The notes beneath the pieces were generated by a model. That model had not been told where the DNA came from and searched no databases. It saw only the letters and a list, made by a program, of their open reading frames with translations. From contig JAFGJO010000024.1 in the NCBI GenBank assembly GCA_016929065.1, positions 1 through 64,000 of the forward strand: a DNA stretch of 64,000 bases, given 5' to 3'. A program made the translations under genes and the position numbers. Source of the DNA: Spirochaetales bacterium. Lineage in GTDB: Bacteria; Spirochaetota; Spirochaetia; SZUA-6; RPPD01. Positions 21,779-46,407 of the stretch are shown in pieces (position 1 is the first letter of the stretch; each line of letters starts with the position of its first letter).

Positions 21779-21808
21779 TAAACAGGGCGGGCATGTGGCA
21801 CCTGTTTA
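21779..21808. terminator. Hairpin between convergent carB and the BioD-like gene
   Basis: TAAACAGG and CCTGTTTA form an 8-bp stem with a GC-rich 14-base loop. It overlaps the stop codon of the minus-strand gene. Eight T precede it on the plus strand, which would be an A-run for minus transcripts, so as a terminator it is weak in both directions. Confidence 0.4.
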
Positions 21809-22981
21809 GATTTTCACACCGAATGTATCAATAAATTTTTGAAAGTCAAAATACTGTTCAAACAGATATTCTACTTCTTTCAGTTTTGTTTTGTCGTAAA
21901 TCTGCAGTTTTGTATTTTCATATGCATCCAAAACTATTTTTTCTGCAGTTGCCGTATCTTCCTCTACATACACCGCAGGGATTCCAGAATTTCTGATTTC
22001 TGATTCCGTTTCAGGATCAATCGCCGGGCAATCTCCGCATGTCAGCAGAAACCCCGCAATACCGTATCCTGATTCTGTCAGCACCCTGTTATATTCACAA
22101 ATAGTGTTGATTCTGCGGCGTGCATTTGCAGCAATGATAACCAGTGATTGCGGGGAGATATGCTTTTTTACATTCAGGAGTTCGGACGGGAGCGAAACAA
22201 CCTTTATCGAATCACACGGGACTTCCCAGGACGGTTCTTCAATATCGCCGATCGCCTCTGCATTCTTGAAATGGTCATGGATTATTTTCATTGACGGTTG
22301 AGAAAGTACCTCTATCATGGGGAGGAATCCCAGGATGGTAAGGGCCCCCCCGAATGCACCGTATTTGTTATTCAAAAGGTCATCGGTAACAAACTGTTTC
22401 ATGGTGGTGATCTTGTCCGGAATCAGTTTGTTGAAAATAATTCCGCGCACTCTGGCGCGTTTGAAGAGAAAATATGACAGATCCACTTCAAGCATGTCCA
22501 ATGCCTTTCCAATTCCTCCGCCCGACAAAAAAACGATATCTGCATTGATCAGATTTGCAACGTTTGCATTGGAGAGCCCCACGATACTCCCGACACCGGG
22601 ATGTCCCGTTCCTTCGGCGATGATAATTTTTTTATGGTTCAGGCTTTCCATCGAATCGATGATCAGGTTTTCGAGGTTTTGTGTCTTGCTGCGGGAATCG
22701 TCAGAAGAAAGAAAACTCTTGGTAAAGCCCGAGCCTACGCGAACCGGTGAGACTTTGGTCATATCCAGGTCGGGAATGGATGAAAACTCCTGTACAATCC
22801 GGGCATCCTTGTCAATTTTAGATCCGTCGGCGAGGGTCACCAGCTCTTGGCCAACGGGTTTAACGTATCCAAGGTGAATCGGATCCATGTGTTTTCGCAG
22901 CAATGATAAAAGTCCAAGACTGGTGACTGTTTTTCCGGCATGCTGGCGAAACCCGGTGATATAAATAACGAGTGGAGCCAT
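21806..22981 (-). CDS. BioD-like P-loop ATPase with DRTGG domain
   Basis: 391 residues. Residues 1-190 form a dethiobiotin-synthetase-like nucleotide-binding fold: Walker A-type GFRQHAGKT at about 10-18, switch-like EGTGHPGVGS, and ADIVFLSGGGIG. Residues about 230-350 match the DRTGG domain (SLVIIAANARRRI, GIAGFLLTCGDCP, SGIPAVYVEEDTATAEKI). This is the architecture found as the N-terminal regulatory part of long phosphotransacetylases, but the acetyltransferase domain itself is absent. AAGGAG precedes the ATG. It is nine bases after cimA, last gene of the ilv operon, suggesting a role tied to pyruvate or acetyl-CoA supply; that role is inference. Confidence 0.7.
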   Translation of the reverse strand: MAPLVIYITGFRQHAGKTVTSLGLLSLLRKHMDPIHLGYVKPVGQELVTLADGSKIDKDARIVQEFSSIPDLDMTKVSPVRVGSGFTKSFLSSDDSRSKTQNLENLIIDSMESLNHKKIIIAEGTGHPGVGSIVGLSNANVANLINADIVFLSGGGIGKALDMLEVDLSYFLFKRARVRGIIFNKLIPDKITTMKQFVTDDLLNNKYGAFGGALTILGFLPMIEVLSQPSMKIIHDHFKNAEAIGDIEEPSWEVPCDSIKVVSLPSELLNVKKHISPQSLVIIAANARRRINTICEYNRVLTESGYGIAGFLLTCGDCPAIDPETESEIRNSGIPAVYVEEDTATAEKIVLDAYENTKLQIYDKTKLKEVEYLFEQYFDFQKFIDTFGVKI

Positions 22982-22990
22982 ACGCTCTCC

Positions 22991-24562
22991 TTATTCGTCT
23001 TTTACGACAAAATTGTTGTAATAATATTCATAGCTGTCAACCAATGCCTGCCAGGATGCCTCAACGATATTTTCAGAAACACCAACGGTATCCCAGTCAA
23101 GGTTTCCATCAGAAGAGGTGATGAATACACGTACTTTCGCACTGGAGGCTTTCTCCGGGTTTAATACACGTACCCGGTAGTCGGTGAGCTTTATGCCCTC
23201 AATAAACGGATACAGAGGCACCAGTGCGTCCCTGAGAGCGGCATCGAGCGTCTCCACCGGGCCTATCCGAACGGCCGCCCCCATGACTTCTTTTACCTGT
23301 ATTTTTAAAAAAAGGCGTCCGACAGTTTTTGAGGGTGCTTCACCGGATTTATAGGATTCCAGGTGATAATTATTGAGTTCCATAAGCGGTGTATATTTTC
23401 CCAGGGTCTTGCGGATGATCAGGTCAAATGACGCCTCGGCTGCCTCGTATTCAAAACCCTCCTGCTCAAGAGTTTTAAGCTGATTAATGAGATCGCTGAC
23501 GATGTCGGATTTTTTGTCGTAGGTTCCATATTTTGAGAGTTTCTGGACAATTGTCGATTTGCCCGCAAGTTCCGAAAGAATAATCGAGCGTGCATTTCCG
23601 ACCAGAGCTGAATCGATATGTTCCATGAGGTAATCTGCTTTGGCCAGGACATCCACATGCTGTCCTGCCTTGTGGGTAAATGCGGCTTCTCCGACATACG
23701 GCTGGCGCCGGTCAGGGATGATATTCGCTTTTTCCGCGACAAACCGCGACAATGAAGTAAGATGTTTGAGGTTTTCAAAGCAATTAATGCTTCGTTTCAT
23801 TTTCAGGGCAAGATTGGGAATCAGGACGCATAAATTTGCATTTCCGCACCGTTCGCCCCAGCCATTGATTGTCCCCTGGACATGAGCTGCACCATATTCA
23901 ACCGCGATCAGGGTATTTGCTACCGCATTGCCGGTATCATTATGAAAATGGCCGCCGAGCGGGGCAAGTTCTTTTTGCGGGAGCTGTTTGTATATCCCGA
24001 TTACCTCGACGGGGAGTGTTCCTCCGTTGGTATCACACAGGACCAGAAAATCAGCACCGGCATCGGTTCCGGCTTTCAGGACCTCAATGGCATAATCTTT
24101 GTCATCCTTGAAGCCGTCAAAAAAATGCTCAAGATCAAATATCACTTCCCGGCCTTCTTTTTTGAGGGTCGCGATAGAGTCATGAATCATGGCTATATTT
24201 TCTTCAAGGGTAGTTTTCAGTACCTGTGTCACATGCTCTTTCCATGCCTTTCCAACCACGACAACCGCCGGAGTTTCCGCTTCTATCAATGCCGTGATAT
24301 GGGGGTCGGAATGGGCTTTTGAGCCCGGTTTGCGGGTGGATCCGAACGCAACCACTTTTGCATGGGCAAGTTTTTCCTGACGGATCTGGCTGAAAAACTC
24401 GGCTTCTTTTTCATTGGAAAGGGGAAAGCCGCCTTCGATGTAATCGATTTTAAACCCATCCAGTTTGTGGGCAATCTGGAGTTTGTCAGTAAGGGTGTAG
24501 CTTATCCCCATTCCCTGCATCCCGTCCCGCAGTGTGGTGTCGAATATACTTACCTTGTTCAT
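22991..24562 (-). CDS. cimA: (R)-citramalate synthase
   Basis: 523 residues from the ATG at 24562 (AGAGG upstream; the GTG at 24568 overlaps that site). It condenses pyruvate with acetyl-CoA to citramalate, the entry to threonine-independent isoleucine synthesis. The HMGL-like barrel begins SIFDTTLRDGMQGMGI, with IDYIEGGFPLSNEKE and GGHFHNDTGNAVANTL (metal His residues). The C-terminal regulatory LeuA-dimer domain follows at about 390-520. It differs from LeuA by the MQGMGI variant after TLRDG and by GTINGWGERCGNANL. Eight bases separate it from leuA. Confidence 0.92.
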   Translation of the reverse strand: MNKVSIFDTTLRDGMQGMGISYTLTDKLQIAHKLDGFKIDYIEGGFPLSNEKEAEFFSQIRQEKLAHAKVVAFGSTRKPGSKAHSDPHITALIEAETPAVVVVGKAWKEHVTQVLKTTLEENIAMIHDSIATLKKEGREVIFDLEHFFDGFKDDKDYAIEVLKAGTDAGADFLVLCDTNGGTLPVEVIGIYKQLPQKELAPLGGHFHNDTGNAVANTLIAVEYGAAHVQGTINGWGERCGNANLCVLIPNLALKMKRSINCFENLKHLTSLSRFVAEKANIIPDRRQPYVGEAAFTHKAGQHVDVLAKADYLMEHIDSALVGNARSIILSELAGKSTIVQKLSKYGTYDKKSDIVSDLINQLKTLEQEGFEYEAAEASFDLIIRKTLGKYTPLMELNNYHLESYKSGEAPSKTVGRLFLKIQVKEVMGAAVRIGPVETLDAALRDALVPLYPFIEGIKLTDYRVRVLNPEKASSAKVRVFITSSDGNLDWDTVGVSENIVEASWQALVDSYEYYYNNFVVKDE

Positions 24563-24570
24563 AATCACCT

Positions 24571-26094
24571 CTAGTCTTTCGCCGTGAGTTGTGTGACGGT
24601 CATATACCGGTTCAACGCATTAATATATGCTTTTGCACTCGCCTCAAGGATGTCCGTGGAAGCGCCTCTGCCGATGAATGTTTTTTCCTCGATTTTCAAT
24701 GTTACCGATACTTCTCCCATCGCAGTTTTTTCCGGTGTGACCGCCTGGACGATATATTCGGTGAGTTTTGTTTTTATATTGGTCACGCGGTCGACTGCCT
24801 TGAAAATGGCATCAACAGGGCCGTCGCCGGTCGCGGCTTCTTCTTCGAGTTTGTCTTTGACGCGGATGCGTACCGCGGCCGTGGGCACTGAAGTGTTGCC
24901 GGACTGAATGCTGAAATAATCAAGTACAAATGCCTGTTTGATTTCACCAATCTGCTCGCTGACGATGACAAACAAATCATCATCATACACTTCTTTTTTT
25001 CGGTCTGCGATTTCAAGAAACCGCTCATACGCCTTTTTCATATCCTCTTCCGGCAGTGAAAAACCGAGCTCTATCAGCCTGGTTTTAAAACCGTGAAGGC
25101 CTGAATGACGGCCGAGGACGATTTTACTCATCTCGCGTCCGACTGATTCCGGGGTCATGATTTCATAGGTTTCACGCTTCTTGAGCACCCCGTCCTGGTG
25201 AATGCCGGATTCATGGGCAAACGCATTCTCTCCCACGACCGGTTTGTTTCTTGGTATGGGAAACCCGATGATATTCGAAAGCATCTTGCTTGAATTATAT
25301 AAAAGATGCGTATTGATATTGGTCGTGAAGGGGAGGAGGTCTTTGCGGACATACATTGCCATCACAGTCTCTTCAAGCGCTGCGTTGCCTGCGCGTTCGC
25401 CGATCCCGTTGAGCGTCACTTCGATCTGGCGCGCACCGTTTTTAACGCCGGCCAGGGTGTTCGCAACACCTAGCCCCAGATCATTGTGGCAGTGCACCGA
25501 GATAATCGCTTTGTCGATATTTGGTACGCCTTCCCGTATTGCCTTGATAAATCCTCCAAATTCTTCGGGCACAGCATATCCGACCGTGTCGGGGATATTG
25601 ATGATGGTTGCTCCCGCGTCAATAACCTTTTCGATAATCCTGCGGAGAAATGAAATCTCGCTTCTGGTCGCGTCTTCCGGCGAGAATTCGACTTCTGCAA
25701 CTTTATTGCGTGCGTATTTCACTGCCTTGACGGCCATCTCAACAACAGAATCCGGGTCCTTGTTGAGTTTGTGTTTCATGTGCAGCGGGCTGGTGGCAAT
25801 AAATGTGTGAATGCGGGGGCGCGCGGCAGCCTTCACTGCTTCACTGGCGCTGTCAATGTCTTTTTCAAGGGCGCGGGCAAGCACGGCGATTGTGGTATCC
25901 TTGACTTTTGCGGAGATGGTTTTACACGCCTCAAACTGATGTGGAGAAGAGATGGGGAATCCCGCTTCTATCACATCAACACCAAGACGAGACAGCTGAA
26001 TAGCGAGTTCATATTTTTGTTCAAGACTCATTGATGCACCGGGAGACTGTTCTCCGTCGCGCAGTGTTGTGTCAAATACAAATATCTTTTCCAT
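24571..26094 (-). CDS. leuA: 2-isopropylmalate synthase
   Basis: 507 residues. It condenses 2-ketoisovalerate with acetyl-CoA, the first committed step of leucine synthesis. Landmarks: FVFDTTLRDGEQSPGASM, GVDVIEAGFPISSP, SVHCHNDLGLGVANTLAGV, QIEVTLNGIGERAGNAALEE, and ENAFAHESGIHQDGVLK. The C-terminal leucine-binding regulatory domain (about 370-500) is present, so feedback inhibition by leucine is expected. It lies five bases after ilvN with AAAGGAG before its ATG. Confidence 0.95.
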   Translation of the reverse strand: MEKIFVFDTTLRDGEQSPGASMSLEQKYELAIQLSRLGVDVIEAGFPISSPHQFEACKTISAKVKDTTIAVLARALEKDIDSASEAVKAAARPRIHTFIATSPLHMKHKLNKDPDSVVEMAVKAVKYARNKVAEVEFSPEDATRSEISFLRRIIEKVIDAGATIINIPDTVGYAVPEEFGGFIKAIREGVPNIDKAIISVHCHNDLGLGVANTLAGVKNGARQIEVTLNGIGERAGNAALEETVMAMYVRKDLLPFTTNINTHLLYNSSKMLSNIIGFPIPRNKPVVGENAFAHESGIHQDGVLKKRETYEIMTPESVGREMSKIVLGRHSGLHGFKTRLIELGFSLPEEDMKKAYERFLEIADRKKEVYDDDLFVIVSEQIGEIKQAFVLDYFSIQSGNTSVPTAAVRIRVKDKLEEEAATGDGPVDAIFKAVDRVTNIKTKLTEYIVQAVTPEKTAMGEVSVTLKIEEKTFIGRGASTDILEASAKAYINALNRYMTVTQLTAKD

Positions 26095-26099
26095 GATGT

Positions 26100-26603
26100 C
26101 TACACTCCTTTGAGGACTTTTTTTATTTTTTTTCCGCGTTCAATTGAAATCAAACCGCTCCGTGCTATTTCAAGAACAGTATATGCAGATAAAATAGTCA
26201 GCATGTCATCGATTTTTTCGGTGGAACCGGTTGCCTCGATCACCATGCTGTCGGAGCCGACATCGACAATTTTGCCCCGAAAGACATCAACGACCTGTAC
26301 TATCTCGCCGCGCTGTGAAGGGCTTGCAGAGACCTTGATTAATGCAAGCTCACGGTGAACGGCTGGCAAGCCGGTGAGATCAGTCAGCTTTATCACATCG
26401 ACCAGTTTGTTCAGCTGCTTTTTTATCTGTTCGATAACATTATCGTCGCCGCTGCAGACAAGGGTGATACGGGAAATTGAAGAATCTGCAGTTACCCCGA
26501 CTGTCAGGCTTTCAAGATTATAAGCCCGTCCCGAAAAAAGGCCGGAGATTCGGGCGAGGACGCCCTGGTGATTTTCCACGAGAAGGCTGATTGTATGTGT
26601 CAT
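26100..26603 (-). CDS. ilvN: Acetolactate synthase, small regulatory subunit
   Basis: 167 residues. The N-terminal ACT domain starts TISLLVENHQGVLARISGLFSGRAYNLESL, the valine-sensing signature; the second half (DLTGLPAVHRELALIKVS…) is the usual ferredoxin-like C-terminal domain. It activates IlvB and confers feedback inhibition. Its ATG overlaps the end of ilvB by four bases, giving translational coupling and equal stoichiometry. Confidence 0.95.
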   Translation of the reverse strand: MTHTISLLVENHQGVLARISGLFSGRAYNLESLTVGVTADSSISRITLVCSGDDNVIEQIKKQLNKLVDVIKLTDLTGLPAVHRELALIKVSASPSQRGEIVQVVDVFRGKIVDVGSDSMVIEATGSTEKIDDMLTILSAYTVLEIARSGLISIERGKKIKKVLKGV

Positions 26604-28330
26604 GTTTCATCTCCCAACAGCATGTTGCTGATCGCGGCTCCTGCGGGAACCATCGGCCAGACATTTGCTTCTTCTTCAATAATAAAATCGAGAATGACAG
26701 GCCTGTTTTTCGACTCTGCGGCCTTTTTCAATGCAGGAATCACCTCTTCTTTTTTTGTCACCCTGATACCGACTGCATCATATGCCTCCGCCAATTTAAC
26801 AAAATCAGGGATGTATGCCAAACAGGTATCTCCCGGGTTGTTGCAGGCTGGCGGGCATTCTGCGCGTTTGCGCAGACAAGTTGAGGAATACCGTTTGTTG
26901 AAAAACAGCTCCTGCCATTGCCGGACCATCCCCAGATACCCATTGTTCAGAATGACTATAATAATTGCCAGACCCTCCTGGGCTGCTGTGGCAAGTTCCT
27001 GGATATTCATCTGAATCGATCCGTCTCCGGCAATATCAATGACTGTCTTGCCGGGATTCCCGAGTTTTGCCCCGATCGCTGCGGGAAACCCGAATCCCAT
27101 GGTTCCCAGGCCTCCTGATGTAATAAGGGAACGTTGATGACGGTAATTGTAGAAAAGGGCAGCCCACATCTGGTTTTGGCCGACTTCTGTTGCAATAATC
27201 GCATCGGGAAAAACTTCACTGACAGCCTGGATCACCATACCCGGCGAGAGTTTGTTTCCGCCCGCATCCGGATTCAGCGGATGTGCATTTCGCCAGCCAT
27301 CGATTTCTTCAAGCCACGGTGCAATCGAAGCGGCCCTGCACGGCCCGATAAGTTCTTCAATAACCTGACGGGCATCACCGACAATGGGGACCTCAACGGT
27401 AACATTGCGCGCAATGGCGGACGGGTCGATATCGATATGAACGATCTTGGCATGCGGTGCGAAAGTGGCGAGATCGCCGGTTGCGCGGTCATCAAACCGT
27501 GTCCCGATACCGAATAAAACGTCACAATTGGAGACAGCCATATTGGCGACATAAGTTCCGTGCATGCCCAGCATTCCCAGGTTCAGTGGATTGTCCGCTG
27601 GAAGGCCGCCGATTCCCATCAGCGAGCTCACCGAAGGAATTCCTGTTTTTTTTGAAAGTTTGCGAAAAACTTCAGATGCATCGGCGATATGAATACCACC
27701 GCCGATATAGAATAATGGTTTTTTTGCTTCATTTAAAAGTTCGGCAGCGCGCCGGATTTGTCCCTGATGACCCTTTATAACCGGGTTATAACTTCGCATC
27801 TGGATTGATTCCGGATACTGATCATCGAGTTTTTCTGTAAGAATATCCTTCGGAAGGTCAACCACGACCGGGCCAGGCCTCCCTGTTGAAGCAATATGAA
27901 AAGCTTCTTTCAATGTGCGGGGAAGGGCACTCCTGTCGGTGACGATGTAGTTGTGCTTTGTCACCGGCCGTGTAATACCGACAATATCGGCTTCCTGGAA
28001 CGCATCGTTTCCAATCATGGAACGCGGAACCTGCCCGGTAAGGCAGACAATGGGTACCGAATCAAAATTGGCATTTGCCAGGCCGGTTACCGTGTTGGTG
28101 GCACCGGGGCCGCTGGTGACAAGGCATACGCCTGTTTTCCCGGTTGAGCGTGCGTACCCGTCTGCAGCATGCACTGCAGCCTGTTCATGGCGGGTAAGAA
28201 CGACATGAATGTCTGGTTCGGCAAAGAGTATATCAAACAGAGGAATCACCACACCTCCTGGATATCCGAATATAATCTCGATGTTTTCAGCTTTGAGAGC
28301 TTCCACAACCATCGCTGCTCCGCTTTTCAT
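26600..28330 (-). CDS. ilvB: Acetolactate synthase, large catalytic subunit
   Basis: 576 residues. A ThDP-dependent enzyme, it makes acetolactate or acetohydroxybutyrate for valine, leucine and isoleucine. The pyrimidine-binding domain has FGYPGGVVIPLFDILF and the activating Glu in LTRHEQAAVHAADGYAR; the diphosphate-binding domain has DIAGDGSIQMNIQELATA and NNGYLGMVRQWQELFF. Odd feature: after NKRYSST, residues 485-503 hold a Cys-rich insert with spacing C-x6-C-x3-C-x6-C, where many AHAS enzymes have a short acidic loop. GAGGAGG precedes the ATG. It is the first structural gene behind the attenuator. Confidence 0.95.
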   Translation of the reverse strand: MKSGAAMVVEALKAENIEIIFGYPGGVVIPLFDILFAEPDIHVVLTRHEQAAVHAADGYARSTGKTGVCLVTSGPGATNTVTGLANANFDSVPIVCLTGQVPRSMIGNDAFQEADIVGITRPVTKHNYIVTDRSALPRTLKEAFHIASTGRPGPVVVDLPKDILTEKLDDQYPESIQMRSYNPVIKGHQGQIRRAAELLNEAKKPLFYIGGGIHIADASEVFRKLSKKTGIPSVSSLMGIGGLPADNPLNLGMLGMHGTYVANMAVSNCDVLFGIGTRFDDRATGDLATFAPHAKIVHIDIDPSAIARNVTVEVPIVGDARQVIEELIGPCRAASIAPWLEEIDGWRNAHPLNPDAGGNKLSPGMVIQAVSEVFPDAIIATEVGQNQMWAALFYNYRHQRSLITSGGLGTMGFGFPAAIGAKLGNPGKTVIDIAGDGSIQMNIQELATAAQEGLAIIIVILNNGYLGMVRQWQELFFNKRYSSTCLRKRAECPPACNNPGDTCLAYIPDFVKLAEAYDAVGIRVTKKEEVIPALKKAAESKNRPVILDFIIEEEANVWPMVPAGAAISNMLLGDET

Positions 28331-28393
28331 GTTGAATCCTCCTCGTTGTGTTGTGGGTATATGCAGTTTGGTACAGCTGTATATACACCTCTT

Positions 28394-28430
28394 TAAAAAA
28401 AAGAAGCCGTTCTCCGGAAGAGAACGGCTT
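28394..28430 (-). terminator. ilv attenuator terminator
   Basis: An 11-bp perfect stem (AAGCCGTTCTC with its inverse, 28404-28414 and 28420-28430) with a 5-base loop, followed on the minus strand by C and eight T. It lies 64 bases before the ilvB start and 22 bases after the leader-peptide stop. Confidence 0.92.
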
Positions 28431-28482
28431 CAAACCTTTCAGGTTAAAGACCTAATCTTCCGGACTCGCTCGGAATGGAAGA
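28413..28482 (-). promoter_or_regulatory. Mutually exclusive attenuator pairings of the ilv leader
   Basis: Three segments are visible on the minus strand. Segment 1, TCTTCC (28477-28482), lies in the codons just after the Val-Val-Val-Val-Ile run. Segment 2, TCCGGAAGA (28456-28464), overlaps the end of the leader frame. Segment 3, TCTTCCGGA (28413-28421), is in the loop and upper stem of the terminator. Segment 2 pairs with 1 (6 bp, pause hairpin) or with 3 (9 bp, antiterminator), never both, and pairing with 3 destroys the terminator. A small AACCT/AGGTT hairpin (28433-28445) lies between. Confidence 0.85.
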
Positions 28483-28559
28483 ATGACTACGACGACTATA
28501 ATGTTAATAATAGCATAAAGTGGGTGAAAGATAGATCTGTAAACTGAAAAAGTTTTCAT
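28452..28559 (-). CDS. ilvL: ilv operon leader peptide
   Basis: 35 codons, starting MKTFSVYRSI and carrying the run AIINIIVVVVIL at residues 16-27: in the twelve residues IINIIVVVVIL plus Ala, five Ile, four Val and one Leu. It then ends PFRASPED and TAG. Such a peptide serves only to make the ribosome stall when charged tRNA-Ile or tRNA-Val is scarce. No Shine-Dalgarno sequence is visible, and the promoter lies so close that the mRNA would be almost leaderless. It resembles enterobacterial ilv leaders in logic, not in sequence. Too short for routine gene callers. Confidence 0.88.
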   Translation of the reverse strand: MKTFSVYRSIFHPLYAIINIIVVVVILPFRASPED

Positions 28560-28569
28560 ATATATATCA

Positions 28570-28596
28570 ATAATATGATATGACCATGTTTGTCAA
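28570..28596 (-). promoter_or_regulatory. ilv operon promoter
   Basis: TTGACA (28591-28596) and TATTAT (28570-28575) on the minus strand with a 15-base spacer, slightly short. The predicted start lies only a few bases before the leader ATG at 28559. Confidence 0.55.
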
Positions 28597-28924
28597 CCGA
28601 TTTTTTTAATAAATATTAAAATATAACTGATGAAAATAAATTCCCAAAAAGCACAAAAGGGACAAATGATAATGTTTCATTGAATAGAGTATATCAATTG
28701 TATTGTTTCAAGTTGATTAGGAAAGCAGTTATATGTGTTTTATTGCCTGGACAGCAGCAAAATACTACTTCCTATAATATATATTCTGTCGACTTAAAAA
28801 CATATCGGCCTGAATGATACTACACAGAACTGCAGGAAAGAAAGCCCGGACCAAGGGGCTATTCTTGTCGCCTCGCGGTCTTTGCGGGCTTTGTGTGAAA
28901 TTCCTTATTTTTAATATTATGCAG
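28597..28924. other. Intergenic stretch upstream of the ilv promoter
   Basis: AT-rich, with no gene visible. At 28871-28904 a segment reads like half of the CGCGGTCTTTGCGGG-type short repeat also seen at 48827-48848 (TTCGCGGTCTCCGCG). No partner arm is found here. Confidence 0.4.
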
Positions 28925-31384
28925 TTAAAGTTTGGTAAACAGATCAAAGTACGGCATGCAGTCCGGAGTGTTTTTCAGTTTCGCGAGAAGAAGCAATCTG
29001 GTAATTGTGCAGTGTCTGAAAAAGTCGTCAGTTTCAAGCGATTGTTTAAGTATTGCCCGTAATGATGATTGTTTATTGAAATCATCTCTCAGGCGCAGTT
29101 TCAGTGTCTGGGAGGCATTGTTCATCTCATATGAAACAATATTGTCAAAATCTTTTAACTTTTCGATATCAACAGGTCCCTGTTTAAAATGTATCTCATA
29201 ATCAGCACCCCAGTAACAGGACATGAGTGAATGTTTTTTTTCTCCTTCTTCGGGATTTTTGATTTGCCGGGCTGCACGTATCTGTATTCCTTCCGGAAGC
29301 ACTGTATTGATTTTTTGGATAAAATCATTGGCATCAGTATAATGTAATAAATTAACCACGGCAATTTCACCTGTAGACGCGATCCCCAGTGATAACGGAT
29401 GGGCAAACTCCAGGACAGGCTTGGGATTAAATCCCTTTGTCATACGGCAGAAAAAACCGCCCCGCTGAAATGCCTGTTCAAAAATATGCATGATATTCAA
29501 ATGAGAGAGATATTCAGCCTTTCCTGTTTTTGAAAACGAGAATAATATCCGGTATGTATTGTCGCGGGAAATAATTTCACGCGACTGCTCTATCCATTTT
29601 TTAGAATCAACATCGATTTCGAGCTGTTTTGAGACGTCTGTTTTAATGCCCGTATGTTTCGAACACACACCGCAGTTTTCAACACAGGGATCTGTGCACA
29701 CCGGCGATAATTCCCTGGAAAGATTCCGGGAATATTCACGTTCCAGTGCTTTCATGGAAACACCAGGAGAAACGTTTTGCCACGGAAGAGGTTCCCCGAC
29801 CATGCGTTTGCGACAGGTTTCTGCCTGCACATCCCAATCCGCCTGCGCAATGCAATTGCGCCATATATCTCGGTTAATCTGGTCATCCCACGAATCAAAA
29901 CATGCACCGTCAAGGAATGCGTGTTCGATGATTTTCCCCGCACGATGGTCTCCCCGGCCGATCATTCCCTCAAGGAACGACTGAAAGGGCGAATGATATG
30001 ATATCTTGAAATGACGTCTGGGCAGAAGTTTCTGCAGCAGCATGATTCTTCGCAAAGCCTCTGTTTCATCAATCTGTGCACACCATTGCAGCGGTGTATG
30101 GGGTTTTGGAACAAATGTGGAAAAATTGACATGGATCTGCATATTCGTCTGACGCTGAATATCATTCAGGGCAGATGCGACGATTTCGGTCTCATCCTGC
30201 CCGATAAATCCCGGCAGGCCGATCATAAAATAAAATTTTGCCTGTTTCCATCCGAGCTTTTTTGCTTCTTTGAGGAGCGATACGGTTTTTTCCAGGGACA
30301 CAATTTTATTGATGCTTTTCTGGGTTTCCTCGAGCGGTGTTTCAACGGCAAAGGTAAGCCCGCTCTTTCGGACCGTTTTTATTTTGGCAAACAAGGACAG
30401 GGCAAAGGTATTAATGCGCAGGGATGGAAGTGAAAAGGATATACCCAGATGGCTGAAATCATTGTTGAGGATTTCAAGGAGAGATTCAATGTCGGGGTAA
30501 TCTCCCGAGGAAAGCGAGGACAAGGATATTTCCCTGTAGCCCCTTCGAAATACATCAAGAAACACTTCCTGATGTATACAGGAGATGGGTTTGGCCCTGA
30601 AGGGCCGGTAAATAAACCCTGCATTGCAGAATCTGCAGCCGTTCGGACAGCCCCGCATGATTTCTACAACTCCGTGGTCCTGTGTTGCCTGAATCGACGG
30701 AACCGGAAATGGTTCGGTAAAACTGCTCTCGCCGAATCCAGTCCAGACTGCCCGGACTGCCTTGTTTTTATCCGGTGTCCAGACCGATGGATATCCGGAA
30801 AAAAGGGCAAGATGTTCCTGTTTCGAAGCGTTCTTTTTTTTCAGCGCCGCAAGTGCGGAAAACGCTTCGGCGAGCCATTCGTCGGCTTCACCGATATACA
30901 CTGCATCAAAAAAATCTGCGAAGGGGGCTGGATTGGTAATGCCCGGCCCGCCGGCGATCACGATCGGATGCTCCCCTCCCCTTTCTGCAGCACGAAAAGG
31001 AATATATCCTGCGTCAAGAATCATGAGTGCATTTGTCGCAGTAAGTTCGTACCCCATTGAAAATGCAATCGTGTCGCATTCACAGAGCGGTATGCCGGAT
31101 TCAAGCGTATACAGCGGGGTATGATGCTGACGCAGAGCCTCCCGGAAATCCTGTTTCGGGGCAAAGACACGTTCACACCGCACAGTATTAATTGCATTGA
31201 TTCTTGCATACAGCAGTTTCACCGCGAGATTGGACATCCCTATTTCATACAGATCAGGATACGAGACTGCGACGGTATAATCAGCATCTTTTTTTACTGA
31301 ACCGAATTCTCCGCCAGTATACCTGCCCGGTTTTTCTATGGAGAGGAGTATTTCTGCCAGGTCTTTCTCAGGAATTATATTCAT
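28925..31384 (-). CDS. Radical SAM protein with B12-binding-like N-terminus and fused DUF2344 (TIGR03960-TIGR03936 type)
   Basis: 819 residues from the ATG at 31384 (TAAGGGA directly upstream; the longer frame begins at TTG). Residues about 20-200 resemble a cobalamin-binding-like domain. The radical SAM core carries the 4Fe-4S motif C-x3-C-x2-C in EIMRGCPNGCRFCNAGF near residues 245-252, followed by LSSLSSGDYPDI and FAVETPLEETQKS. From about residue 600 a separate DUF2344 domain begins YRILFSFSKTGKAEYLSHLN. The two parts are separate proteins in some bacteria. The reaction is unknown; links to RNA modification are suspected for the family. It is translationally coupled to rodA, ending the shape-gene run. 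Confidence 0.85.
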   Translation of the reverse strand: MNIIPEKDLAEILLSIEKPGRYTGGEFGSVKKDADYTVAVSYPDLYEIGMSNLAVKLLYARINAINTVRCERVFAPKQDFREALRQHHTPLYTLESGIPLCECDTIAFSMGYELTATNALMILDAGYIPFRAAERGGEHPIVIAGGPGITNPAPFADFFDAVYIGEADEWLAEAFSALAALKKKNASKQEHLALFSGYPSVWTPDKNKAVRAVWTGFGESSFTEPFPVPSIQATQDHGVVEIMRGCPNGCRFCNAGFIYRPFRAKPISCIHQEVFLDVFRRGYREISLSSLSSGDYPDIESLLEILNNDFSHLGISFSLPSLRINTFALSLFAKIKTVRKSGLTFAVETPLEETQKSINKIVSLEKTVSLLKEAKKLGWKQAKFYFMIGLPGFIGQDETEIVASALNDIQRQTNMQIHVNFSTFVPKPHTPLQWCAQIDETEALRRIMLLQKLLPRRHFKISYHSPFQSFLEGMIGRGDHRAGKIIEHAFLDGACFDSWDDQINRDIWRNCIAQADWDVQAETCRKRMVGEPLPWQNVSPGVSMKALEREYSRNLSRELSPVCTDPCVENCGVCSKHTGIKTDVSKQLEIDVDSKKWIEQSREIISRDNTYRILFSFSKTGKAEYLSHLNIMHIFEQAFQRGGFFCRMTKGFNPKPVLEFAHPLSLGIASTGEIAVVNLLHYTDANDFIQKINTVLPEGIQIRAARQIKNPEEGEKKHSLMSCYWGADYEIHFKQGPVDIEKLKDFDNIVSYEMNNASQTLKLRLRDDFNKQSSLRAILKQSLETDDFFRHCTITRLLLLAKLKNTPDCMPYFDLFTKL

Positions 31385-31388
31385 TCCC

Positions 31389-32702
31389 TTATGAATACCT
31401 TCTGAAATAAATATTGAGAATAATGCCAATACTGATGAGCCCGGTCAGCAGGGATGATCCGCCGTACGAGACAAAAAAGAGCGGAATACCGGTAATGGGC
31501 ATGATTCCCATGGTCATTCCGATGTTGATGACCAGATGATACAACAGCATCCCGATGATACCCGCACCGATAAAATGTGCATACTGGTCAGTGGTGTGCG
31601 TCAAAATGCGAACACTGCGCAGAAGGATGACCAGAAAACTGGAAAGAATGATGATTCCTCCCAGAAAACCCAGTTCCTCTGAAATAATCGAAAAAATAAA
31701 ATCGGTGCTCTGTTCGGGAACATATTTCAGTTTGCTCTGTGTGCCCTCAAGAAATCCTTTTCCAAAAAGCCCTCCAGACCCCACTGCCAAAACCGAATTA
31801 ATGATATGCCATCCGCTTCCCTTTGCATCGATAGTGGGATCAAGAAAAATGATCAGTCTGATTTTCGGCGTTGAGTAGTCGCTGAATACTTTTCGTACGA
31901 AAAACGATCCCAGGAATGATGAAAACAATACTCCGGATGCATAGCATATCCAGTAAAATATTCTGTCACGCAAAAAATAGTAGCCTGTAAAAGCGAGCGC
32001 ACCAATCAAAGAGATGATGCCGATCACATAAAATATATAGTCGAATGAAGTGAGTATATTAAGAACCGGTAATTTTGTTTTCAGAAAGAATTTCTGGAAT
32101 TCCGGTATCATGCTGATGGTAATCATCAGGAAACCGGAAATGACGATAAAGAATATATGACGCCTCCGGGCACCCGCGATCCAGGTCATCACGAAAAAAA
32201 CAGGAAGAAACACCAGGGCAGTACCCATGTCGGGCTGGGTCAGTACCAAGCCCATGGGCAGCATGCATATCAGAAATCCGGCGATGAAAAACAGCAGTTC
32301 ATGGATGCGGTTCTTGAAGCGGACAAGATATTCACCCAGGAGCAGAATCGTCGACAATTTTGCGAATTCAGATGCCTGGATACCGAATCCTCCGATTCCG
32401 ATCCAGGAGCGGGCATTGTTCACTTTTTTCCCAATTACCGCGGTAATGACCAACAGCAGGATAAACACAATATACAGGATAAGCGAAATGTCACGCAGCC
32501 GCTGATAGTTGAAAAAAGCAAAGAAAAAAAGTATGGGAATTCCAAATATGGCCCAGATAATTTGTTTTATAAATTCATCGTCACGCATATGGCCGTCGGC
32601 ATCTGTATTGCTGGAGAGGATAAAGAGAATCCCCACCAGCATCAAAACCAGCGTCGCGATAACAATCGCGAGATCAATGCTGAATATGGAACCTTTTTTC
32701 AT
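31389..32702 (-). CDS. rodA: Peptidoglycan glycosyltransferase RodA
   Basis: 437 residues, SEDS family. It polymerises glycan strands of the lateral wall together with PBP2. About ten membrane segments are visible, with the conserved NNARSWIGIGGFGIQASEFAKLS segment, LTQPDMGTALVFLPVFFVM (catalytic Asp region), AVGSGGLFGKGFLEGTQSKLKYVPEQSTDFIF, and GIPLFFVSYGGSSLLTGLISIGI. It is a little longer than most RodA proteins because of a loop after GSFFVRKVF. It overlaps mrdA by four bases. Confidence 0.95.
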   Translation of the reverse strand: MKKGSIFSIDLAIVIATLVLMLVGILFILSSNTDADGHMRDDEFIKQIIWAIFGIPILFFFAFFNYQRLRDISLILYIVFILLLVITAVIGKKVNNARSWIGIGGFGIQASEFAKLSTILLLGEYLVRFKNRIHELLFFIAGFLICMLPMGLVLTQPDMGTALVFLPVFFVMTWIAGARRRHIFFIVISGFLMITISMIPEFQKFFLKTKLPVLNILTSFDYIFYVIGIISLIGALAFTGYYFLRDRIFYWICYASGVLFSSFLGSFFVRKVFSDYSTPKIRLIIFLDPTIDAKGSGWHIINSVLAVGSGGLFGKGFLEGTQSKLKYVPEQSTDFIFSIISEELGFLGGIIILSSFLVILLRSVRILTHTTDQYAHFIGAGIIGMLLYHLVINIGMTMGIMPITGIPLFFVSYGGSSLLTGLISIGIILNIYFRRYS

Positions 32703-38043: not shown

Positions 38044-38150
38044 ATTTATAACCTGTTTGTATCTATGTACGATAAAATTGTATTTTTGTAAAGCCATGAA
38101 GGGAACTGTGATGTTTAAATAACAAGAGATCATTGTTTTCTGAAAAAAAA

Positions 38151-38595
38151 AGACAGGTCTGTAAGCCGGGTTCTGTGAACAATTACTGCAGAGCAGTAAT
38201 CGACCGGCACCATCTATCTTGTTCCAATACTTACGTATGGAATCTGTGCAGCCTACCCGCAGGTAAAAGACGAGCAGCCTCCTGCTGTTTGGCCTTGCTC
38301 CAGACGAGGTTTGTCATTCCGGATCAATTACTGGATCCGAGGCAGGCTCTTACCCCGCCATTTCACCTTTACCCGGCCACTAAATCGAAGATTTAGTGGC
38401 TTCCCACCAAAAATACAGGGTATTTTTGGTGGTCGGGCTGTATGTTTTCTGTGACACTTTCTGTACCGCTGTTTTTGAGAATATCAAAAACAGCGGCCCC
38501 GGTTATTACCCGGCATCATGCTCTGCGGAGCCCGGACTTTCCTCCTGAACACTCAATCAAAGATTTAGTGGTCAGGCGGTGCCGCGACCTGTCTT
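38151..38595 (-). ncRNA. rnpB: RNase P RNA
   Basis: Catalytic RNA that trims tRNA 5' leaders. The 5' GACAGGTC (38586-38593) pairs with the 3' GACCTGTC (P1). Conserved segments are GAGGAAAGTCCGGGCTCC near the 5' end and ACAGAACCCGGCTTACAGACC near the 3' end. At about 445 bases it is longer than most bacterial RNase P RNAs: AT-rich hairpins such as CCACTAAATC/GATTTAGTGG and CCACCAAAAATAC/GTATTTTTGGTGG extend peripheral stems. Nine T follow the 3' end. It starts eight bases after the stop of the zinc-ribbon gene and so is probably processed from that transcript. Confidence 0.93.
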
Positions 38596-46189: not shown

Positions 46190-46272
46190 ACCCCACTGAA
46201 GGGGTGGCAGATACTCAAAGCCTGAGAACATACCCATTGAACCTGATCTGGATAATGCCAGCGAAGGGATTT
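46190..46272 (+). promoter_or_regulatory. TPP riboswitch (THI box)
   Basis: The conserved aptamer segments are all present: GGGGTGGC, CCTGAGAA, the CCCATTGAACCTGATCTGG core and GATAATGCCAGCGAAGGGA. It senses thiamine diphosphate and represses the downstream thiamine genes. About 130 bases separate it from thiC. There is no T-run terminator, but TCTCCCCTT at 46316-46324 is nearly complementary to the thiC ribosome-binding site AAGGGAGAG (46392-46400), suggesting control of translation. Confidence 0.95.
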
Positions 46273-46407
46273 GTTCCGCATTGTATGAGCTCATGAAGAA
46301 TACCTGCAATTATTATCTCCCCTTTCGACGTTTACAGCTGGAATGTACCATAATCGGCCGCAGTCAACATGATTGCTCTGTGAGTTCCGGCAAGGGAGAG
46401 GATGATC

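Follow-up and report, generated by a model that had tools for sequence, protein, structure and literature searches.

A probable branched-chain amino acid attenuator upstream of ilvBN-leuA-cimA in a spirochaete, with counterparts across its order

Members of the Proteobacteria and the Actinobacteria are known, or have been proposed, to regulate ilvB by attenuation at a translated leader frame (PMC1262725, PMC10272879, PMC11857589). The attenuators of the ilvB and ilvGMEDA genes of Escherichia coli and Salmonella, which are cited in PMC10272879, combine a leader peptide rich in branched-chain amino acids (BCAAs) with mutually exclusive antiterminator and terminator pairings ahead of genes of the same class as those considered here. 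Similarly, the Corynebacterium ilvB-II motif and the ilvBNC leader of C. glutamicum place a BCAA uORF before ilvB, together with a terminator and an antiterminator (PMC10272879, PMC11857589), and the C. glutamicum leader peptide lacks a ribosome-binding site (Morbach et al. 2000, as cited in PMC10272879); this actinobacterial system differs from the one described below in its shorter uORF (15 to 17 aa) and in the anti-antiterminator hairpin of its model. The closest precedent within the phylum is the Leptospira ilvB motif (WRC-14-1), comprising seven sequences from Leptospira only, which was initially a weak riboswitch candidate (PMC8632094) and was then reread as a uORF containing three or more Val codons in a row, for which attenuation was proposed (PMC10272879); it shares with our elements the phylum, the position before ilvB, and a uORF. 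For a different amino acid, tryptophan, the attenuated transcript of the alphaproteobacterial Sinorhizobium meliloti trpL begins with the leader ATG and is thus leaderless (PMC7298713). Attenuator-like anatomy is no guarantee of the mechanism, since mutating candidate regulatory codons upstream of Streptomyces coelicolor ilvB had no effect (as cited in PMC1262725).

The window (i.e., the whole 64-kb stretch of DNA analyzed) carries an element of comparable organization on its minus strand, to which all of the following coordinates refer. Its leader promoter has a TTGACA -35 box (28596-28591) and a weak -10 element (TTATTG/TATTGA, near 28573-28567), the latter placed by reference to relatives. 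Downstream is a leader peptide ORF of 35 codons (MKTFSVYRSIFHPLYAIINIIVVVVILPFRASPED; ATG at 28559 to TAG at 28452), 13 of which specify Ile, Val, or Leu, with a Val/Ile codon run, AIINIIVVVVIL, at 28514-28479. The end of this frame is overlapped by segment 2 (TCCGGAAGA; 28464-28456), the 5' strand of an antiterminator, which is exactly complementary over 9 bp to segment 3 (TCTTCCGGA; 28421-28413); segment 3 covers the edge of the terminator stem and its loop, and a small AACCT/AGGTT hairpin (28433-28445) lies in the antiterminator loop. The intrinsic terminator itself has an 11-bp stem (GAAGCCGTTCT, 28431-28421, and AGAACGGCTTC, 28413-28403) with the loop CTTCCGG, is much more stable than shuffled sequence (z = -4.9), and runs into a T8 tract (28402-28395) at which the attenuated transcript is expected to end. 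The ilvB start lies 64 nt beyond the end of this T run and is preceded by the Shine-Dalgarno sequence GAGGAGG (28338-28344). Every coordinate that the original prediction had given was recovered on this strand.

We interpret the element as very probably a ribosome-mediated transcription attenuator of the trp/his/ilv type that is specific for BCAAs and controls ilvBN-leuA-cimA. A ribosome would load at the leader ATG, at or adjoining the transcript's 5' terminus. A shortage of Val-, Ile-, or Leu-tRNA would make it stall within the AIINIIVVVVIL run, leaving segment 2 free to pair with segment 3, i.e., with the 5' arm and loop of the terminator, ahead of synthesis of the 3' arm, and the polymerase would continue into ilvB. 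If charged tRNA were abundant, a ribosome at the stop codon would cover segment 2, the terminator would fold, and transcription in vivo would stop near 28395.

All four genes named in the prediction as lying downstream were confirmed with NCBIfam on the minus strand: ilvB, encoding the acetolactate synthase large subunit (26600-28330; TIGR00118, 786 bits); ilvN, encoding its small subunit (26100-26603; TIGR00119); leuA, encoding 2-isopropylmalate synthase (24571-26094; TIGR00973, 745 bits); and cimA, encoding citramalate synthase (22991-24568, likely starting with the ATG at 24562; TIGR00977, 626 bits). These identities indicate that the operon serves the synthesis of Val, Leu, and Ile, and the amino acids sensed match this gene content. 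The product of the gene directly behind cimA (21806-22981, minus strand) matches phosphate acetyltransferase over its N-terminal, BioD-like half alone, without the catalytic domain (PRK05632, 64.5 bits against a cut-off of 418). The genome (3.49 Mb in 69 contigs) possesses three FlaA genes (PF04620), a family detected in 22 of the 26 genomes sampled from the order, with no match among 14 controls; this bears out the earlier suggestion that the organism is a spirochaete. The genome's second AHAS gene (C64) has no attenuator upstream. Elsewhere in the window are a TPP riboswitch (46190-46286, plus strand), at the Rfam gathering score, and a class A RNase P RNA (38146-38595, minus strand; 249 bits).

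We compared the locus with 19 genomes of the order that have a close IlvB (at least 64% identity), leaving out the IlvB proteins from a scan of named genomes (at most 58% identity). The region upstream could be read in 14 of the 19; in four of the others the contig stops within an upstream ilvD or right at its start, and in the remaining one (G020) ilvB is itself truncated. All 14 readable genomes have an Ile/Val/Leu-rich leader and a terminator before ilvB or ilvD-ilvB, with segment 2 at, or shortly past, the leader stop codon. Nine similar elements, mostly with a GGCAGC/GCTGCC-type core, precede a second AHAS gene, two belong to other orders of the class and lie before ilvB (G405 and G402), and one precedes leuA (G328). 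Elements before ilvB also occur in other classes of the phylum (L177, L178, L179, L181, L190, L192, L201, and L203), with a differing core that in the best examples is GCGGGAT pairing with ATCCCGC. Including five further elements with a mixed core, the collection comprises 39 elements. The alignment of relatives that the prediction had proposed as its check thus came out in its favor: the leader frame, codon run, terminator, and leader-to-terminator pairing are kept despite sequence divergence.

The elements were collected with a filter for a short frame having at least six Ile, Leu, or Val codons per eight and a terminator nearby. Applied to the 64-kb window, it matched this leader and terminator alone; in related loci, with about 1.0 Mb of strand-sequence scanned, it returned 50 matches, of which about 11 were away from BCAA genes and most were directly upstream of ilvB, ilvD, leuA, or a second AHAS gene. 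Across the 39 elements, Ile, Leu, and Val make up 42% of the codons in the leader frame, compared with 20 and 11% when the two remaining frames are read, a figure that is descriptive only because the filter picked the frame for such richness. The position of the elements beside BCAA genes is independent evidence that the leader is coding. A covariance model (R1) run over 393 genomes of the phylum was tried and set aside, its matches being mostly ordinary terminators; a second R1 match in the present genome (C9:29729) was likewise rejected, being a plain terminator that follows an unrelated gene.

To what extent segment 2 and the terminator belong together was gauged by exchanging them among elements. 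The mean duplex energy was -16.9 kcal/mol for native pairs, -15.3 kcal/mol for swaps within groups, and -11.9 kcal/mol for swaps between groups, and not one of 20,000 permutations of the 39 elements was as strong as the native sum (about 9 standard deviations); with 21 spread representatives, the result was again 0 of 20,000 (about 6.8 standard deviations). Because swapping leader segments and terminators weakens the pairing, the two have co-evolved. The RNAalifold consensus of the 14 sequences of the order is the 2:3 helix, with compensatory pairs; it is paired in 92% of cells within the order, where covariation taken by itself is modest (two of eight pairs changed on both sides). These observations argue that a mutually exclusive antiterminator pairing is under selection. 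The parts of the element, their conservation, and this co-evolution are read from sequence and its comparison.

Assuming that a standard ribosome footprint is valid in spirochaetes, the geometry of the codon run is such that a stalled ribosome frees segment 2 and a ribosome at the stop codon covers it. In the window element, the antiterminator is the minimum-energy fold for 3' ends from 28416 to 28395 when the ribosome is stalled (free RNA from 28471), and the terminator is the minimum-energy fold once the ribosome has reached the stop codon (free RNA from 28442). As long as the 3' arm is missing, the median number of segment 2:3 pairs over the 39 elements is 11.0 with a stalled ribosome versus 1.3 with a ribosome at the stop codon, and at least six such pairs form in 36 of the 39 with the ribosome stalled. 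When full-length RNAs are folded at equilibrium, the terminator mostly prevails, and it does so in half of the elements of the order regardless of which part is uncovered; an equilibrium switch is present in only 7 of these 14, and in the window element it hinges on the exact edge of the ribosome. We rejected equilibrium folding as proof of the switch, as it fails in many elements, and retained co-transcriptional folding. Since the terminator is favored at full-length equilibrium, the proposed mechanism must be kinetic, as classical cases of attenuation likewise are.

A different use of the leader, in which its translation matters and the RNA switch works via Rho or translational coupling in place of the intrinsic terminator, would be in line with the leader frames without working attenuation known for Streptomyces ilvB (PMC1262725). 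We consider it improbable, as every element found has a strong intrinsic terminator and T run (a regularity partly built in, because a terminator was a search-filter criterion), the 5' arm co-evolves with the leader end, and the T run ends 64 nt upstream of the ilvB start. Appreciably less credible still is a small-molecule riboswitch or T-box before ilvB accompanied by a coincidental short frame. Genes of the ilv group are elsewhere under ppGpp riboswitches and T-boxes, and the Leptospira motif also entered the literature as a riboswitch candidate (PMC8632094); however, a search of the region 28330-28640 against Rfam 15 with E values up to 10 gave no riboswitch or T-box match at gathering score and nothing near or above that score for any family, the T-box and any ilvB motif included. 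Moreover, relatives keep the leader frame and its codon bias, whereas the RNA sequence outside segments 2 to 4 has diverged, which speaks against a riboswitch. That the terminator merely ends the upstream radical-SAM gene (28925-31429), which is on the same strand as ilvB, and that the hydrophobic short frame arose by chance is equally far-fetched, given that the ilvB promoter box is located upstream of the terminator and that the arrangement recurs before ilvB or ilvD in all 14 readable genomes of the order.

Attenuation by a translating ribosome being the preferred reading, one of its customary parts stands apart. The original prediction had included a 1:2 pause hairpin, and its six complementary bases are indeed present, with TCTTCC as candidate segment 1 (28482-28477) and GGAAGA at 28461-28456; the comparison lends it no support, and we rejected it as a conserved part, since it folds no better than shuffled sequence in the window (z = 0.1) or, for the 1:2 region, across the 39 elements (mean z = -0.07). 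Such a hairpin is usual in attenuators of the trp/his/ilv type but arguably not defining, and it may be dispensable here.

Initiation on the leader also appears unusual. The window leader has no Shine-Dalgarno sequence (0.6 kcal/mol versus -11.6 kcal/mol for ilvB). Among the leaders of its own class, the best promoter ends 6 to 12 nt before the start codon in 23 of 28 (shuffled sequences gave 3.8 on average and never more than 11), placing the start codon at or close to the predicted +1. In the window genome, an unbiased promoter scan ranks a different site first, and the -10 element is weak; the leaderless start suggested for it comes from the TTGACA-to-ATG distance, which at 37 nt resembles that of its relatives (mostly 35 to 39 nt). 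The leader message is thus probably leaderless, the start sites being predicted ones. Most leaders from other classes show a Shine-Dalgarno-like site and greater promoter-to-start spacing. We tentatively raise the possibility of a spirochaete lineage of BCAA attenuators lacking both a Shine-Dalgarno sequence and a conserved pause hairpin, in which leaderless loading at the ATG, and not a paused polymerase, would synchronize ribosome and polymerase, with other classes keeping a leadered, mostly Shine-Dalgarno version. The question this raises is how leaderless leaders coordinate the ribosome and the polymerase without a conserved pause hairpin.

In comparison with the E. coli and Salmonella attenuators, the spirochaete elements thus belong to another phylum, lack a conserved 1:2 pause hairpin, and have a probable leaderless leader, and we know of no sequence relation between the two. 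They extend a textbook mechanism to a little-studied lineage, the same switch recurring across the order, and involve no new mechanism; the leaderless start and the want of a conserved pause hairpin are candidate distinguishing features. The 39 elements, in several gene contexts, form a large comparative set for classical attenuation in a phylum in which it had merely been suggested earlier, from the seven Leptospira sequences. The expectation that attenuation here would widen the range of the mechanism to spirochaetes holds in part: a Leptospira ilvB uORF attenuator was already proposed in 2023 (PMC10272879), so the extension is only partly new, and in the open-access literature that we searched there was no description of such an attenuator in the class Spirochaetia.

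The elements are not universal, as many IlvB-bearing genomes of the phylum have none within 1.3 kb upstream. Those of the other classes and the Leptospira ilvB motif may form a single family. In one genome (G401, about C1:2949600-2949750; L223), a second AHAS gene is preceded by a leader rich in Val, MTATVRNLVVSLSVLVVVVLVVVDAGRRRSG, and a terminator. In another (G010), the gap between attenuator and ilvB contains a short GTG-started frame, VSKELNSSVYLGSNSQNVCSAAHGAIQNINEGGKE (L102, about 1370-1490), that resembles the first codons of ilvD fused to its last; the interior of ilvD has apparently been deleted from this ilvD-ilvB operon. In G009, of the same genus, ilvD is intact at this position.
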